A DNA stretch of 38,904 bases from Candidatus Uhrbacteria bacterium RIFCSPHIGHO2_12_FULL_60_25 (GTDB lineage Bacteria > Patescibacteriota > Patescibacteriia > 2-12-FULL-60-25): the NCBI GenBank assembly GCA_001791275.1, contig MGEH01000004.1, positions 1 through 38,904 of the forward strand, in the 5' to 3' direction. Of this stretch, positions 33,235 through 38,904 are shown in pieces. Below the pieces are notes generated by a model, which made no database searches, was not told the origin of the DNA, and saw only the letters and a list, made by a program, of their open reading frames with translations. Position 1 is the first letter of the stretch. Every line of letters begins with the position of its first letter. The translations under genes and the position numbers were made by a program.

Positions 33235-35931
33235 ATGTCACGTTTTCAGGACCTGCCCAAGGCCTACGACGCGTCTTCCGTGGAAGACGCGATTTACGCG
33301 TCGTGGGAGATGTCGAACGCCTTTAACCCTGACAAGCTGCCCGGCACGCGTCCCGACCCGTACTGCATCGTGATGCCTCCACCGAATCGCACGGGGACGC
33401 TGCACGTGGGCCACGCAGTCATGCTCGCGATCGAGGACTTGATGATCCGGTTCCAGCGCATGCGTGGGAAGAAGGCGCTCTGGATTCCCGGCACGGACCA
33501 CGCGGCCATCGCCACACAGGTGAAAGTCGAGCAGCTCTTGCGCGAGCAGGGGATGAAGGACCCGAAGAAGGAACTTGGGCGGGAGAAATTCCTCGAGAAG
33601 GTCATCTCGTTCGCCGAAGAGTCTGCCGCGACGATCCGGAACCAGGTGCGAAAGATGGGGTCGTCGTGCGACTGGACGCGCGAGAAGTACACGCTGGACG
33701 CGGAACGCAACCGCGCCGTCGTCGAGATGTTCCGGCGCATGCACGAGGACGGGCTCATCGAGCGCGGAGATCGGATCGTAAACTGGGATCCCCAATCGAA
33801 GACGGTCGTTTCAGACGATGAAATTGTGTGGATCGATGAGAAGGCGCCGTTCTATACGTTCAAGTATGGTCCGTTTGAAATTGGGACGTCTCGTCCGGAA
33901 ACGAAGTTCGGAGATAAGTACGTCGTCATGCATCCGGAGGATCCGCGGTACGCGTCCTTCGAGCAGGGTCAGAAGATCGAGCTCGAGTGGATCAATGGTC
34001 CGATCACGGCGACAGTCGTCAAGGATTCCGTCATCGATCGTGAGTTCGGGACCGGCGTCATGACGATTACGCCCTGGCACGACAACGTGGACTACGAGCT
34101 GGCGGAACGGCATGCGCTCGACAGGGAGCAGATCATCGACTTGGAGGGCAGGTTGCTCCCGATCGCCGGAGAGTTCGCGGGCCTTCCGATCCTCGAAGCG
34201 CGCAAGAAGGTCGTGGAGAAGCTGAAACAGAAGGGGCTGCTCGTGAACGTCGACGAAAACTATGCGCACCGCATTGCCACGTCCCAGCGTGGAGGCGGGT
34301 TGATCGAGCCGCAGATATTGCGTCAGTGGTTCGTGCGCGTGACGAAGCCGTTCGCGCTCCGCCAGGACACGCTCGGGAAGTGGAAGAAGGGCGATCAGGT
34401 CACGTTGAAAGAGCTCATGCGCCATGCGGTCGAATCTGGGCAGACTAAGATTGTCCCGGAACGTTTCACGAAAATCTATTATCACTGGATCGACAACTTG
34501 CGCGACTGGTGCATCTCGCGGCAGATCTGGTTCGGGCATCGGATACCGGTGTGGTACCGGGAACCGGGAACCGGGAACGGGGAACCGGGAACGGGGAACC
34601 GGGAACCGGGAACCGGGAACGAGGAACCGGAAATCCGGGTCTCGGACGTGTCGCCGGGTGCGGGGTGGGATCAAGATCCTGACACGCTCGACACGTGGTT
34701 CTCATCAGGGCTGTGGACGTTTTCGACGCTTGGGTGGCCTGACGAGAAGGAATGGAATAAGAACCGCGCCTACCACCCCACGGCCGTCCTCGAAACGGGG
34801 TATGACATCCTATTTTTTTGGATTGCGCGCATGGTGCTCATGAGCGCGTACGCGCTTGGTGAGGTCCCATTCCGCGACGCCTACCTCCACGGACTCATTC
34901 GCGACGAACAGGGGCGAAAGATGTCCAAGTCCCTCGGGAACGTCATTGATCCTTTGGACGTGATCCCGAAGTACGGCACAGACGCCGTCCGCCTGTCCCT
35001 CGTGATGGGCACCACACCCGGGCAGGACGTGCGTCTCTCCGAGGCGAAGATCGAGGGGTTCAGGAATTTTACGAACAAGCTGTGGAATATTTCGAGGTTT
35101 ATATTGATGCAGATCGGGGAACCGGGAACCGGGAACCGGGAACCGAAAACGCTGGCGGATCGTTGGATCTTGTCGCGCCTCGACGAAGTCGCGGCGAGCG
35201 TCACGTCTAAAATCGAGAAATACGAGTTCTCGTCCGCCGGAGAGGAACTGCGCGACTACACGTGGGGCTACCTGGCGGACTGGTACCTCGAGATCGCGAA
35301 GGTCGAGAAGGGGAAGGACGCGATCCTCGCCCATCTTCTGCGTCATGTCCTTATCCTCTGGCATCCGTTCATGCCGTTTGTGACGGAGCACATTTGGAAG
35401 ACAGCCGGATTTGATGGGCAATTGATCGTCGCGTCTTGGTCACAAGTACGGGCGCAGCATGCTGCGCCCGTACAGGAATTCGAAGTATTGCGTCAGCTTG
35501 TGACGGACATGCGCCGTCTCCGCGCGGATCAGGGCGTCGAGGCGGCGAAGCAGGTCGAGATCGCGCTTGTCGCGTCTTCTGACGTGAAAAAGCTCGTCGA
35601 AGAGAACATGGAGGTCGTGAAGCATCTGGCGCGCGCGGCATCCGTCGCGTTCGTCGGCGCGGTCGCGTTCGGGTGGGCCACGACGGTCTCGGGGAGCGCT
35701 ACGATCGGACTGAATGTCGCAGGATCCGTCGACATCGTAAAAGAGAAGGACAAGGCACAGAAAGAGATCGATGCAACGCGCAAATACGTCGAGAGTTTGA
35801 ACGTCCAGCTTGCGAACGGGGAGTTCACGTCCAAGGCTCCGGCGTCGGTTATCTCCGGGATGAAGCTGAAATTGTCCGAAGCGGAGATGAAGTTGAAGAC
35901 GCTGGAAGAGAAGGTGAAAAGGTTGGGGTGA
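33235..35931 (+). CDS. valS: valyl-tRNA synthetase
   Basis: 898 residues from the ATG at 33235; the longer frame would translate the leader palindrome. The class I signature is PPPNRTGTLHVGHAV (about 48-62) and the KMSKS loop is KMSKSLGNVIDP (about 562). The CP1 editing domain with TPWHDNVDYELAERH and the GHRIPVWY and DTWFSSGLW motifs are intact, and the C-terminal coiled coil is complete. It charges tRNA-Val and edits mischarged Thr. Three repeat elements are translated in frame: heptamer arrays at 34559-34628 and 35117-35144, and a palindrome at 35446-35473. Each falls where family members vary in length, so the enzyme is probably active. Confidence 0.98.
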   Translation: MSRFQDLPKAYDASSVEDAIYASWEMSNAFNPDKLPGTRPDPYCIVMPPPNRTGTLHVGHAVMLAIEDLMIRFQRMRGKKALWIPGTDHAAIATQVKVEQLLREQGMKDPKKELGREKFLEKVISFAEESAATIRNQVRKMGSSCDWTREKYTLDAERNRAVVEMFRRMHEDGLIERGDRIVNWDPQSKTVVSDDEIVWIDEKAPFYTFKYGPFEIGTSRPETKFGDKYVVMHPEDPRYASFEQGQKIELEWINGPITATVVKDSVIDREFGTGVMTITPWHDNVDYELAERHALDREQIIDLEGRLLPIAGEFAGLPILEARKKVVEKLKQKGLLVNVDENYAHRIATSQRGGGLIEPQILRQWFVRVTKPFALRQDTLGKWKKGDQVTLKELMRHAVESGQTKIVPERFTKIYYHWIDNLRDWCISRQIWFGHRIPVWYREPGTGNGEPGTGNREPGTGNEEPEIRVSDVSPGAGWDQDPDTLDTWFSSGLWTFSTLGWPDEKEWNKNRAYHPTAVLETGYDILFFWIARMVLMSAYALGEVPFRDAYLHGLIRDEQGRKMSKSLGNVIDPLDVIPKYGTDAVRLSLVMGTTPGQDVRLSEAKIEGFRNFTNKLWNISRFILMQIGEPGTGNREPKTLADRWILSRLDEVAASVTSKIEKYEFSSAGEELRDYTWGYLADWYLEIAKVEKGKDAILAHLLRHVLILWHPFMPFVTEHIWKTAGFDGQLIVASWSQVRAQHAAPVQEFEVLRQLVTDMRRLRADQGVEAAKQVEIALVASSDVKKLVEENMEVVKHLARAASVAFVGAVAFGWATTVSGSATIGLNVAGSVDIVKEKDKAQKEIDATRKYVESLNVQLANGEFTSKAPASVISGMKLKLSEAEMKLKTLEEKVKRLG
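34559..34628 (+). repeat. ten tandem heptamers inside valS
   Basis: Nine perfect units of GGGAACC or GGGAACG and one AGGAACC run without interruption. They encode repeated REPGTGN/GEPGTGN heptapeptides between the GHRIPVWY motif and the DTWFSS motif. Confidence 0.97.
35117..35144 (+). repeat. four tandem heptamers inside valS
   Basis: Four perfect GGGAACC units encode GEPGTGNREP at the junction of the catalytic and anticodon-binding domains, just before LADRWILSRL. Confidence 0.95.
35446..35473. repeat. perfect 28-nt palindrome inside valS
   Basis: GTACGGGCGCAGCA (35446-35459) is followed directly by its exact complement (35460-35473). It is translated as VRAQHAAPVQ in the anticodon-binding domain. 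Confidence 0.95.
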
Positions 35932-35954: not shown

Positions 35955-35983
35955 TTGACAATATAATCAATTTAGTTTATCTT
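35955..35983 (+). promoter_or_regulatory. promoter for the riboswitch transcript
   Basis: TTGACA (35955-35960), a 17-nt spacer and TATCTT (35978-35983). Transcription would start near 35990, just before the aptamer. Confidence 0.85.
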
Positions 35984-35998
35984 AGAACTACAACCGAA

Positions 35999-36112
35999 GA
36001 CTGACGTATCCAGAGAGTGGAGATGCCAAGGGAACTGACCCGATGCTCCACCCGCAACCATCCGAAAGGAAAGGTGCGACCTTCAGCCCCGAAAGGGGAA
36101 AGATAATGAGTC
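35999..36112 (+). promoter_or_regulatory. SAM-I-like (S-box) riboswitch aptamer
   Basis: The conserved S-box elements occur in order: AGAGAGTGGAG (36012-36022), GGGAACTGACCC with GATG and CTCCAC closing P2 (kink-turn pattern), CCGCAACC, GGTGC as the P3 return strand, a CCCC-GAAA-GGGG P4 hairpin (36087-36098) and AAGATAATGAG closing P1. P1 is TATC/GATA plus GACT/AGTC with a small internal loop. J3/4 differs from the usual TAAATCC (here GACCTTC), so it may be a variant. It should sense S-adenosylmethionine; none of the genes after it is a recognised methionine or SAM gene. Confidence 0.72.
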
Positions 36113-36118
36113 CTGGAG

Positions 36119-36144
36119 TACGTCGCCGCAAGGCGTCGTTTTTG
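36119..36144 (+). terminator. riboswitch expression-platform terminator
   Basis: CGCC (36124-36127), GCAA loop, GGCG (36132-36135), extended by ACG/CGT, then five T residues. It lies 7 nt after the aptamer. The following 36145-36311 holds CCAAGGA/TCCTTGG (36200-36206 with 36223-36229) and C-run/G-run pairing, which may form a second hairpin, but no gene. Confidence 0.8.
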
Positions 36145-36311
36145 TTAAAACGACTCATCTACAGGCGACGAACCATGCCCAGACCCCCCCTGTCTTTCCC
36201 CAAGGAATAAGGGGGTTTCTGATCCTTGGAGGAAGGGTCGGAGAAACGAGCGGATACGAACGCAAGGTTGGTTGAGTGTGGACATTCGACAACAGAAAAG
36301 GAGAAAAAATC

Positions 36312-37277
36312 ATGAATGCAACTGGATGGAATATGCACAGCGTCGTCGACATGGTCCCCATGGGCGACGCGGACCCCAAACTCTCGAAGGCCCTGCGGGT
36401 CGTCGAGGACCACGCCATGACAGCGCTGGGTCGTGAAATTGGAGACCTCGCAACTCTCAAACGACTTTCTACAAGCCCGCGGGCGGAGATCTCCCACCTG
36501 CGGGACCTGGGAAGACAGTTGAAGTTCGTCACGATTCCGTTCTCGTACCTCGATCCGGCGTCGTATGCAGACGAACCGGCCGAGACGCGGTGGGAAATCG
36601 CGACCTTCGTTCACGTCCTGTCTCCGATGTTCGACGTCTATGCGATGTGCCCGCTCGAGTACTACAGCTTGGCCAGGCACATCGCCGCGGTGGAGGACCT
36701 CCCCATCATGGTTCCGGAAGAGTACGTCCAGATCTTCCAGATGCTCGATATGTGCCTGCCTGTCTTTCGCGGGATCAGGCAGGACATCGCAGAGCTTCGC
36801 GAAAAGCTCGAGCTGAATATCCGCGCCCAGCAGGAGCGGGCCCGTATCCGGATGCTGGACCCCATGATGTTCGCGGTGCCGAAGACGAAGGGCATCCAGG
36901 ACGACGGTTTGGCGCTCATCGGCCCGGCCTGGGGTCCTGACCTCGACGATCTCCTCCTGCGGAACTTCGAGCTGAAGGCCAAACCCGAACAACGGCGGCT
37001 CATCGAGGAGTCGGTACGGGCAATGCTGGGCGATGGAGAGCGCGCCTTTGATCAGACGGATGTGGGGAGGCTGAACGTCGACCCCATCCTGCTGAACGAG
37101 GTGACACGCGACCATCGGGAGATCCGCGAGGACGTCCGACGATACCTCGAAGGTGACGGGTCAGTGCTGAACGCGCCGCCGATCAACGGACATGCCTACA
37201 CGCTGACGGACATCACCCGCGTCGGGCAGATCGCTCGTCGGAGCCTCGTCTATCTCCAGCGTCTTCATCGGGACTGA
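36312..37277 (+). CDS. unknown protein, first gene of the riboswitch-led cluster
   Basis: 321 residues from the ATG at 36312, with AAGGAG 8 nt upstream. It is soluble and mostly helical: an N-terminal region, a central helical region with EYYSLARHIAAVEDLP and a Glu/Arg-rich helix (about 165-190), and a C-terminal region. The C-terminal part (DPILLNEVT, then VRRYLEGD, then IARRSLVYLQRL) closely resembles the whole protein encoded at 37630, so this is a repeated module. No known domain was recognised. The gene lies after a SAM-I-like riboswitch and terminator and starts a run of five closely spaced genes. The motif GGACATTCGACAA lies just upstream (36280-36292), as it does before 37630. Confidence 0.8.
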   Translation: MNATGWNMHSVVDMVPMGDADPKLSKALRVVEDHAMTALGREIGDLATLKRLSTSPRAEISHLRDLGRQLKFVTIPFSYLDPASYADEPAETRWEIATFVHVLSPMFDVYAMCPLEYYSLARHIAAVEDLPIMVPEEYVQIFQMLDMCLPVFRGIRQDIAELREKLELNIRAQQERARIRMLDPMMFAVPKTKGIQDDGLALIGPAWGPDLDDLLLRNFELKAKPEQRRLIEESVRAMLGDGERAFDQTDVGRLNVDPILLNEVTRDHREIREDVRRYLEGDGSVLNAPPINGHAYTLTDITRVGQIARRSLVYLQRLHRD

Positions 37278-37295
37278 ACTGGAAAGGAGCATGTC

Positions 37296-37514
37296 ATGTG
37301 TGGATCCGGAACACCCGTAAGCCGCCTTCAGGCGGCTGGTACGCTTCATTCGCTTGGCAAGAGCAAGTGGCTTTCCGTGGGTGAAGATCTGGCCAAGCTG
37401 CCCGTCCCCGATTTTGAGAAAGTCCTCCATGCCTTTCGGCTCATCCGAAGGGCACGGGACATCGAACGGGGTCAGGAAAGCGCCGTGCGACGACGTTCTT
37501 CCGCGTCACGCTAA
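37296..37514 (+). CDS. small basic-tailed protein of unknown function
   Basis: 72 residues starting MCGSGT, with AAAGGAG 6 nt before the ATG and 18 nt after the preceding stop. It has a short polar N-terminus, a helical middle (VPDFEKVLHAFRLIRRARDI) and an Arg/Ser tail. Its start context (AAAGGAGCA-x-x-GTC-ATGTG) and MC-x-G opening resemble those of the gene at 38388. A palindrome (37320-37337) lies in its coding sequence. Function unknown. Confidence 0.65.
   Translation: MCGSGTPVSRLQAAGTLHSLGKSKWLSVGEDLAKLPVPDFEKVLHAFRLIRRARDIERGQESAVRRRSSASR
37320..37337. repeat. palindrome inside the small basic-tailed gene
   Basis: AGCCGCC, loop TTCA, GGCGGCT, flanked by GTA and TAC-like ends; translated as SRLQAAG. 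Confidence 0.7.
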
Positions 37515-37531
37515 GCAAAACCTCCTTCTTT

Positions 37532-37556
37532 GGAGAGGACGCTCTGCGTCCTCTCC
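37532..37556. repeat. palindrome between cluster genes
   Basis: GGAGAGGACGC (37532-37542), loop of 3, GCGTCCTCTCC (37546-37556). It fills the gap between the genes at 37296 and 37630. Confidence 0.85.
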
Positions 37557-37629
37557 TCTAACCGGCTCGTGAGAATGGTCTCGCGGGTCGTGAGAGGAAA
37601 CGGACATTCGACAAGAAAGCGGAGGAGTC

Positions 37630-37950
37630 ATGGCGACAAGGAACATATTGGATCCCATCCTGCTGCGCTACGTCACTATGGATGAAAGCGCGGACACCAT
37701 CGAGCGTGTACGTCAGTTCCTGCAAGGGGATGTCGAGTCCGCGTATGATTTTGGAAGGATTGTCGAGCGAGATCCTTTGTCAGAACTCGTCATCATGCAA
37801 GATCTCTCGCAAGAAGCGCATATCGCGCATATTGTCATCCGCTATCTCGATCTAGCGAGCTTGATGGAGGATATCGAGAGGGGAGACAAGAAGATCCTTG
37901 GCTTGAGAAAGCCGCCTTCGAAAGAATCCACGCTCACTCAGATGGAGTAA
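37630..37950 (+). CDS. unknown protein homologous to the C-terminus of the 36312 product
   Basis: 106 residues with GGAGGAG just before the ATG. Residues 5-35 (ILDPILLRYVT, then VRQFLQGD) match the pattern in the C-terminal part of the 36312 protein (NVDPILLNEVT, then VRRYLEGD), and the later IAHIVIRYLDLA matches IARRSLVYLQRL. It is therefore a stand-alone copy of that module. Its leader carries the same GGACATTCGACAA motif (37602-37614). The next gene begins 3 nt after its stop. No known function. Confidence 0.78.
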   Translation: MATRNILDPILLRYVTMDESADTIERVRQFLQGDVESAYDFGRIVERDPLSELVIMQDLSQEAHIAHIVIRYLDLASLMEDIERGDKKILGLRKPPSKESTLTQME

Positions 37951-37953
37951 ACC

Positions 37954-38712
37954 ATGAAGAAAAAGAGCAAAAAATCGGTCCGGCTCTATGACCTGCGTAA
38001 GGACAACTTCCCGGACAAACGCGGTGACGACTTCCGCAGCCTCCAGGTCTTCACGTGCTGGGTGTGCGGTGCGGTCACGAACCGTGTGGTCATGGGCGGG
38101 TACCCGGGGTACGGGGTCCGCGTGATCTGCCCGAACAGCAGCGAGTGCTGGCACCACGAACTCGAACAGAAAGTTTCGTGGCTCGAACATCCGCATCCGA
38201 AGGCGTACACGGATGCGCTCCGGCAGGAGATCGAGGGGTTCAAGGTCGAGCACCAGAGCCTCGTACAGAGCGACATCGAGGGTGATCCTGACCACAGCCT
38301 GAAAGGTCAGGTCACGAATAACGAAGTCGTACCTTCCAGGGTCGAATTGCACCCATTGATTCTGAAGGAGAAGAAAGGAGCAACGTCATGTGTTACGGAA
38401 CGGCAACGAGTCGGAACAGCTGGCAAGAGCCAGAGAGCGGACACAACGAGTGGTCGGCTTTTGTGGAGATCCAGAACAGGATCGAAGCGGAGAAGAAAGA
38501 GGAAGAGAAGCGGAAGAGGAGACGGAAAGCCTCCCGAAAGAAAACGTGAGCTGCTCAGTCTATCGACCCCGTCCCCCCTCGGCTACGCTCAGGGTTGGGA
38601 CGGGGTCTTGATTATTCCGGACGGTTTGGATTTTCTGGATCGACGTGCCAGCGCAAGGGGTTCAGTCGGATATAGTCTCGCGTGCTGGCCAGGCCTTCGT
38701 CTGTCCAGATGA
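37954..38712 (+). CDS. unknown Cys-containing protein; downstream part of frame doubtful
   Basis: The frame gives 252 residues. The first 110 look genuine: a basic start, CWVCG (about 35-39) and a CPNSSECWHH stretch (about 60-69) that could bind zinc, then a helical region. After about residue 145 the frame overlaps the gene at 38388 in another frame, passes through a terminator (38565-38611) and runs antisense to the transposase gene, giving low-complexity basic sequence. The native protein probably ended earlier and a frameshift or stop loss, or a sequencing error, has extended it. The start has GGAG a few bases upstream and lies 3 nt after the previous stop. Confidence 0.6.
   Translation: MKKKSKKSVRLYDLRKDNFPDKRGDDFRSLQVFTCWVCGAVTNRVVMGGYPGYGVRVICPNSSECWHHELEQKVSWLEHPHPKAYTDALRQEIEGFKVEHQSLVQSDIEGDPDHSLKGQVTNNEVVPSRVELHPLILKEKKGATSCVTERQRVGTAGKSQRADTTSGRLLWRSRTGSKRRRKRKRSGRGDGKPPERKRELLSLSTPSPLGYAQGWDGVLIIPDGLDFLDRRASARGSVGYSLACWPGLRLSR
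38388..38549 (+). CDS. very small basic protein of unknown function
   Basis: 53 residues starting MCYGTATSRN, with AAAGGAG 7 nt before the ATG. A polar aromatic N-terminus leads into a helix (AFVEIQNRIEAEKKEEEKRK) and an Arg/Lys tail, suggesting nucleic-acid or ribosome contact. It overlaps the doubtful 3' part of the frame starting at 37954. Its start signal resembles that of the gene at 37296. It is the last gene of the cluster and is followed by a terminator 16 nt later. Confidence 0.6.
   Translation: MCYGTATSRNSWQEPESGHNEWSAFVEIQNRIEAEKKEEEKRKRRRKASRKKT
38565..38611. terminator. terminator between the cluster and the transposase gene
   Basis: GACCCCGTCCC (38565-38575) with its exact complement (38597-38607), T-rich after. 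The loop holds CTCGGCTACGCTCAGGG, part of the GAGCG-type dispersed repeat. Confidence 0.85.
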
Positions 38713-38904
38713 TGCGTTCGTGAAAATTTCGTTGCCAGAATGGATCCCCTGATGATTGACGCAGCATATTTATCTTCTGAGCAGAAAATGTTTTAAACGC
38801 GCGGATCGTCTCCGACAAACCTTGTCGTTTCCCCGTAGGGGCGGGTTTTAAACCCGCCCCGTCGGTGATATGCGTGGGGTGTAATCCTGTCGGGGCGGGG
38901 TTTA
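38612..38904 (-). CDS. REP-associated tyrosine transposase (RAYT), C-terminal part
   Basis: The frame is open to the window edge, so about 97 C-terminal residues are seen. SETIRAFKTFSAQKINMLR, FWQRNFHERII and RDYIRLNPLRW are the characteristic C-terminal signatures of RAYT (TnpA_REP) proteins, which process REP palindromes as single-stranded DNA. The catalytic His pair would lie upstream, outside the window. Just before them the frame reads through the palindrome at 38838-38860 (GLKPAPTGKR), so the gene carries a repeat in its own coding sequence. Whether the full gene is intact cannot be judged. Confidence 0.85.
   Translation of the reverse strand, partial: NPAPTGLHPTHITDGAGLKPAPTGKRQGLSETIRAFKTFSAQKINMLRQSSGDPFWQRNFHERIIWTDEGLASTRDYIRLNPLRWHVDPENPNRPE
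38838..38860. repeat. palindrome inside the RAYT gene
   Basis: GGGGCGGGTTT (38838-38848), one base, AAACCCGCCCC (38850-38860), preceded by GTA. A second partial copy begins at about 38890 and is cut by the window end. Confidence 0.9.

Follow-up and report, generated by a model that had tools for sequence, protein, structure and literature searches.

A SAM-I-type riboswitch leader upstream of small orphan genes in a Patescibacteria genome without detectable metK

Between valS (end at 35931) and tyrS-argS (start at 39239), a conserved chromosomal site, the genome of the ultrasmall, uncultured Candidatus Uhrbacteria bacterium RIFCSPHIGHO2_12_FULL_60_25 carries five compact genes. The 38,904-nt stretch of contig MGEH01000004.1 analysed here is referred to as the window. 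Its genome (979 kb in 37 contigs, 95% complete; G000 in comparisons) is of the Patescibacteria/CPR type by gene content and relatives, and two publicly named relatives of one window protein belong to a Yanofskybacteria and a Parcubacteria genome. A preliminary description had regarded the five genes as a functional set built by duplication, with strong Shine-Dalgarno sites, shared leader sequences and shared protein modules. The genes are the following:

36312–37277, plus strand: P0001, 321 aa, predicted to be all-helical (pLDDT 38.6), C-terminal module in common with P0003
37296–37514, plus strand: P0002, 72 aa, begins with MCGSG, homologous proteins in G060 and G035
37630–37950, plus strand: P0003, 106 aa, DPILL-VRxxLxGD module in common with P0001
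37954–38359, plus strand: P0004, zinc-binding-like protein, open frame continuing to 38712 (252 aa)
38388–38549, plus strand: P0005, 53 aa, begins with MCYG and has a basic tail, coding signal weak

The cluster is adjoined by a REP-associated transposase-like gene (38793–39230, minus strand, partly N-masked in the contig), at which a palindromic GGGGCGGGTTTTAAACCCGCCCC element is located (approximately 38838–38861). Repeats of the GTGNREPGTGNREP type (ggaaccgggaaccgg) occur within the valS frame at approximately 34500–34620 and at other places of the window; this repeat is dispersed and able to sit inside a conserved enzyme gene.

The main feature of the locus is a SAM-I (S-box) riboswitch at 36004–36109, which the preliminary description had overlooked. 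The elements of the leader and of the end of the cluster are:

35955–35983, plus strand: sigma70-like promoter TTGACA-17-TATCTT, its TTGACA retained at this position in G001, G002 and G027
36004–36109, plus strand: SAM-I (S-box) riboswitch aptamer (RF00162, 38.0 bits, E 2.5e-6)
36034–36037, plus strand: pseudoknot strand CUGA of loop L2, pairing with UCAG in J3/4
36085–36088, plus strand: pseudoknot strand UCAG of J3/4, pairing with CUGA in L2
36120–36144, plus strand: predicted intrinsic terminator ACGTCGCC-GCAA-GGCGTCGT followed by a T-run, with the 5′ arm GTACGTCG
36180–36221, plus strand: second G+C-rich hairpin, located between riboswitch and P0001 within the stretch of leader that is conserved in G027
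36280–36292, plus strand: first copy of the leader 13-mer GGACATTCGACAA, exact
37602–37614, plus strand: second copy of the leader 13-mer GGACATTCGACAA, exact
38564–38612, plus strand: strong hairpin GACCCCGTCCC...GGGACGGGGTC followed by TTGATTATT (−34.3 kcal/mol)

The match to RF00162 is full-length (model positions 1–108, E 2.5e-6 in a 3-kb search) and its 38.0 bits lie below the gathering score of 44.4, so that the score by itself does not place the aptamer in this family. At the same chromosomal site, the riboswitches of G002, a genus mate, and of G027, the closest homologue although it belongs to another genus, reach 47.9 and 44.7 bits, respectively, both above the cut-off. Ten genomes of the taxonomic family have an RF00162 match (five above the cut-off), and in five of the ten it lies directly upstream of metK, the expected target. 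All four stems of the aptamer (P1–P4) are complete in the window with 28 of the 30 mapped pairs being standard, and the conserved SAM-contact core is present as GCAACC, GGUGC and AAAGAU. The pseudoknot between L2 and J3/4 is complementary in all ten members of the taxonomic family, among which it is formed by five different pairs (CUGA/UCAG, CUGG/CCAG, UCGG/CCGA, ACGG/CCGU and ACGA/UCGU). The residues that we take from the crystal structure to contact SAM directly (U7, G11, GCAACC, UGC and U88) are all kept in the window aptamer, and SAM is, we infer, its ligand. The leader has the four-stem aptamer, the GCAACC/GGUGC core, the L2-J3/4 pseudoknot and a predicted terminator platform in common with SAM-I riboswitches of RF00162, which in related genomes stand upstream of metK, but it differs in its sub-cut-off score, in a C at A9, in proteins of unknown function as its target and in a genome without detectable metK.

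Downstream of the aptamer, the 5′ arm of the terminator (GTACGTCG) and the segment TGACGTAT in the 5′ strand of P1 are complementary, and their pairing would constitute the antiterminator. This complement comprises 8–10 bp and is kept in G000, G001, G002 and G027. Terminator and antiterminator are hence predicted to be mutually exclusive in these four genomes, and the switching path proposed below would build on this complementarity. The terminator is modest (−11.6 kcal/mol in a short fold), and a fold of the whole leader prefers another, longer pairing of the terminator 5′ arm with a downstream segment near 36165.

Two leaders of the cluster were said to have a sequence in common, and GGACATTCGACAA is indeed found exactly at 36280 and 37602. 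A third exact copy in the genome likewise lies in a 5′ leader (contig C18, 15245–15257), and each of the three precedes a start by a short distance. Among the non-SD 8-mers found ahead of starts, TTCGACAA ranks with the most over-represented (5 versus 0.35 expected; the highest of 60 random 8-mers used as control also reached 5). GGACATTCGACAA/TTCGACAA is possibly a 5′-leader element of accessory genes. Leaders with the shorter TTCGACAA also stand before the genes for a secreted protein of 658 aa and a lipoprotein of 744 aa; exact copies occur in leaders of G002 and G020. Single-mismatch versions of the 13-mer in other genomes, located inside coding sequence, were dismissed as mostly chance. 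For the gene behind the C18 leader and its HATPase partner, no defence family was matched.

As for the genes themselves, all five open reading frames are present. Four of them have a strong Shine-Dalgarno site (SD≥5), a level reached by only 63 of the 669 ORFs of at least 150 aa in the genome (9%), and the gene at 37954 has GGAG; the earlier remark on Shine-Dalgarno sites is thus borne out. Measured against the other frames, codon usage yields clearly positive log-odds for P0001 (+0.35 bits per codon), for P0003 (+0.21) and for the initial 144 codons of the 37954 ORF (+0.39), whereas the value of P0005 is weak (+0.17) and that of P0002 lies below zero (−0.15). Despite this negative signal P0002 is a real gene, since homologues with the same MCG start exist in G060 (42% identity) and G035 (E 3.6e-33). 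P0004 has relatives in seven other genomes, and across the eight aligned members C35, C38, C59 and H67 are invariant, which is the pattern of a putative zinc site; Pfam holds no model for this family. Two of the relatives end in TN-(about ten residues)-C-x-H. The 252-aa frame of the 37954 ORF is devoid of this ending and has a coding signal of −0.72 bits per codon over 38388–38549, and the next frame reads KSYLPGSNCTH followed by a stop at 38359, resembling the tails of the relatives. Hence, a frame change near 38318 is probable, caused by either a mutation or an assembly error, and P0004 would overlap P0005 in appearance only.

Duplication accounts for one pair of the set. P0003 repeats the C-terminal module of P0001, as had been noticed (BLASTP E 8e-5 in a single comparison; Smith-Waterman z 6–7, with 0 of 1000 shuffles scoring as well), while P0002, P0004 and P0005 are unrelated to these two and to each other. 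The MC-x-G opening of P0002 and P0005 is real, with M-C starts in 8 of the 760 predicted ATG ORFs, but homology of the two proteins was rejected because beyond this opening only their basic tails align. None of the five proteins matched a known family, including families of SAM, sulfur or methionine metabolism; no link of any of them to SAM, methionine or transport was found and no transmembrane character was seen by eye. Relatives of P0001 were absent from 57 related genomes, a GTDB scan and viral contigs, and P0005 had no convincing relatives in four libraries. The AlphaFold models were too poor for a fold search, both for P0001 by itself (pLDDT 38.6) and for P0004 together with two relatives (43.3). 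The small size, the helical or zinc-binding look and the lack of enzyme signatures suggest functions in binding or regulation and not in catalysis.

That the genes form a functional set is supported by the single promoter-riboswitch leader at the head of the cluster and by the strong hairpin, similar to a terminator, at its close; this hairpin, not flagged by a consensus terminator scan, is likely the end of the transcription unit. The set is further supported because its gene order recurs elsewhere. The order of an MCGx protein, a short VR/K-xx-L-x-G protein and a zinc protein is found again in G060, where a P0002-like protein is followed by one of 62–69 aa with VRFYLYGD and then by a P0004-like protein, and the first two genes recur in G035, where the leader carries TTCGACAAGGAG just before the start. 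The middle protein resembles P0003 weakly in G060 (z 3.4) and without support in G035 (z 0.7). In G061, which is related to G060, another protein occupies this slot. The order is not conserved within the genus of the window, and the riboswitch site of G002 and of G027 carries different genes.

In the window genome and its three genus mates, neither MetK (PF02773) nor the archaeal-type MAT (PF01941) was found as a SAM synthetase, while SAM-using rRNA methyltransferases (KsgA and RsmH) are present. SAM would therefore presumably come from outside the cell. The reading of the riboswitch as a gauge of imported SAM would rest on this absence; metK could sit in the missing ~5% of the genome, though all four genomes of the genus are without it.

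We consider it fairly probable that the cluster is one transcription unit, a small orphan operon that a SAM-I off-switch releases once SAM, presumably imported, becomes scarce. With SAM plentiful, the aptamer would close P1, the terminator at ~36120–36144 would form and transcription would stop before P0001. With SAM low, TGACGTAT of the P1 5′ strand would pair with GTACGTCG, no terminator would form and the five small proteins would be made. If SAM is obtained from outside, the switch would report the external (host) supply, and the cluster proteins may represent a low-SAM response, be it acquisition, sparing or host contact. Counting against this explanation are the score of 38.0 bits, under the Rfam curated score, the C at A9 in J1/2, the second hairpin at 36180–36221 and the long gap between the terminator and P0001, as well as the modest terminator, the other pairing in the whole-leader fold and the lack of a link of the proteins to SAM, methionine or transport.

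The C at position 9 of J1/2, which occurs in the window and in G027, might instead mean that the SAM-I fold has been kept with a ligand that is no longer SAM, so that the cluster answers another metabolite. J3/4 also has non-canonical letters and the cargo is unrelated to SAM, which would fit a changed ligand, but the remaining pocket letters, among them what we take to be the direct SAM contacts, are kept, and the genus mates G001 and G002 have the normal CAAGAG in J1/2. SAM-I variants can change their ligand (PMC10853860). The spermidine-sensing variants, altered in J1/2 and the P3 internal loop, have the SAM-I fold, the terminator off-switch and genes not always belonging to the SAM cycle in common with the window, but they combine changed pocket letters with polyamine genes (PMC10853860), whereas the window keeps the pocket letters apart from A9 and its cluster contains no polyamine gene. 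We thus regard a changed ligand as unlikely and retain SAM as the presumed signal.

Over 260 nt, including the second hairpin, the leaders of the window and of G027 are 82.3% identical, while the genes that follow are unrelated in G000, G001, G002 and G027, with different genes at the very same site in G002 and G027; the proteins behind the riboswitch in G001 and G002 are of similar length, end in DITHxxL and may be related to each other. The RNA itself could accordingly be what is conserved, the terminated transcript acting in trans as a small RNA with the orphan genes as passengers. The Listeria SAM riboswitch SreA reportedly acts in trans, and the terminated SAM-I leader of the window could likewise be a stable RNA. 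The terminator/antiterminator is a conserved cis device, the genes have strong Shine-Dalgarno sites and mostly a coding signal, and a single small-protein family recurs behind the switch across six families of the class (see below), which argues for cis control. Action in trans is hence quite improbable compared with cis control of the cluster by SAM.

A relic would be another explanation for a riboswitch in a genus without detectable metK: it once drove metK or another gene, metK was lost, unrelated genes filled the slot and no important regulation is left. The metK-linked copies in the family and the low score of the window copy would suit such decay. We hold this to be very doubtful, as the pseudoknot and the antiterminator complementarity are intact, the promoter is kept and identity across genera is 82%; moreover, G027 has metK on another contig, without a riboswitch there, yet retains the valS-linked riboswitch. 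That the cluster is cargo of a phage or mobile element, or a defence island unrelated to metabolism, is highly improbable: its orphan small proteins, its variable cargo and the adjoining REP-type transposase-like gene would be in line with it, but PHROGs and PADLOC gave no match except weak low-complexity ones of P0005, scans of viral contigs with P0001, P0003 and the first 144 aa of P0004 yielded no relatives, and the valS/tyrS-argS site is chromosomal and conserved.

Of 380 class genomes, a riboswitch match occurs in 100 and metK in 216; the two coincide in 84, and in 16 the riboswitch is present without metK. The association (84/216 versus 16/164, odds ratio 5.9, p 4e-11, uncorrected for incompleteness and relatedness) makes a riboswitch retained without metK the exception. 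Behind the switch of these 16 genomes are mostly small proteins of unknown function. One protein family (RPELsvFPfnvlF ... YEPDLsTF) stands behind the SAM-I switch in six families of the class (genomes G145, G178, G211, G235, G249 and G254, five of the six without metK):

L097, L099, L102, L104, L105 and L044: loci with genes of this family behind riboswitches

A second small-protein family is found behind the switch in further genomes, sometimes fused to the first. Neither had an above-cut-off Pfam match, and the window cluster proteins are outside both. The pairing of a SAM-I switch with orphan small proteins, often without metK, is thus recurrent across this Patescibacteria class. A kinship of P0004 to zinc-like proteins behind other SAM switches, suspected by eye, was discarded, as seeded profile searches missed P0004. 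Several genomes (L106, L109, L117 and L123) have a SAM-I riboswitch immediately ahead of a small ORF and a gene resembling rny (ribonuclease Y). At L098 (G205:C29, about 25305), in a genome without metK, the riboswitch is followed by an apparent second tandem aptamer and then by genes resembling those for ribosomal proteins L10 and L7/L12.

Literature searches on riboswitches in Patescibacteria, Parcubacteria and the candidate phyla radiation gave few papers; riboflavin riboswitches were not found in Parcubacteria (PMC4508563), and our search yielded no report of SAM riboswitches in Patescibacteria or of a SAM-I/orphan-gene design. Tentatively, it is conceivable that Patescibacteria which have lost metK gauge host SAM with the retained SAM-I riboswitch and have linked this riboswitch to small orphan proteins in sets that can be exchanged. 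If true, a fixed RNA sensor would drive lineage-specific response cassettes. The CPR is rich in proteins without a known function, and where a riboswitch of known ligand precedes such genes, it provides a condition for them (low SAM) and a way to test them. The riboswitch in metK-less genomes also raises the question how such bacteria sense SAM and obtain it from others.
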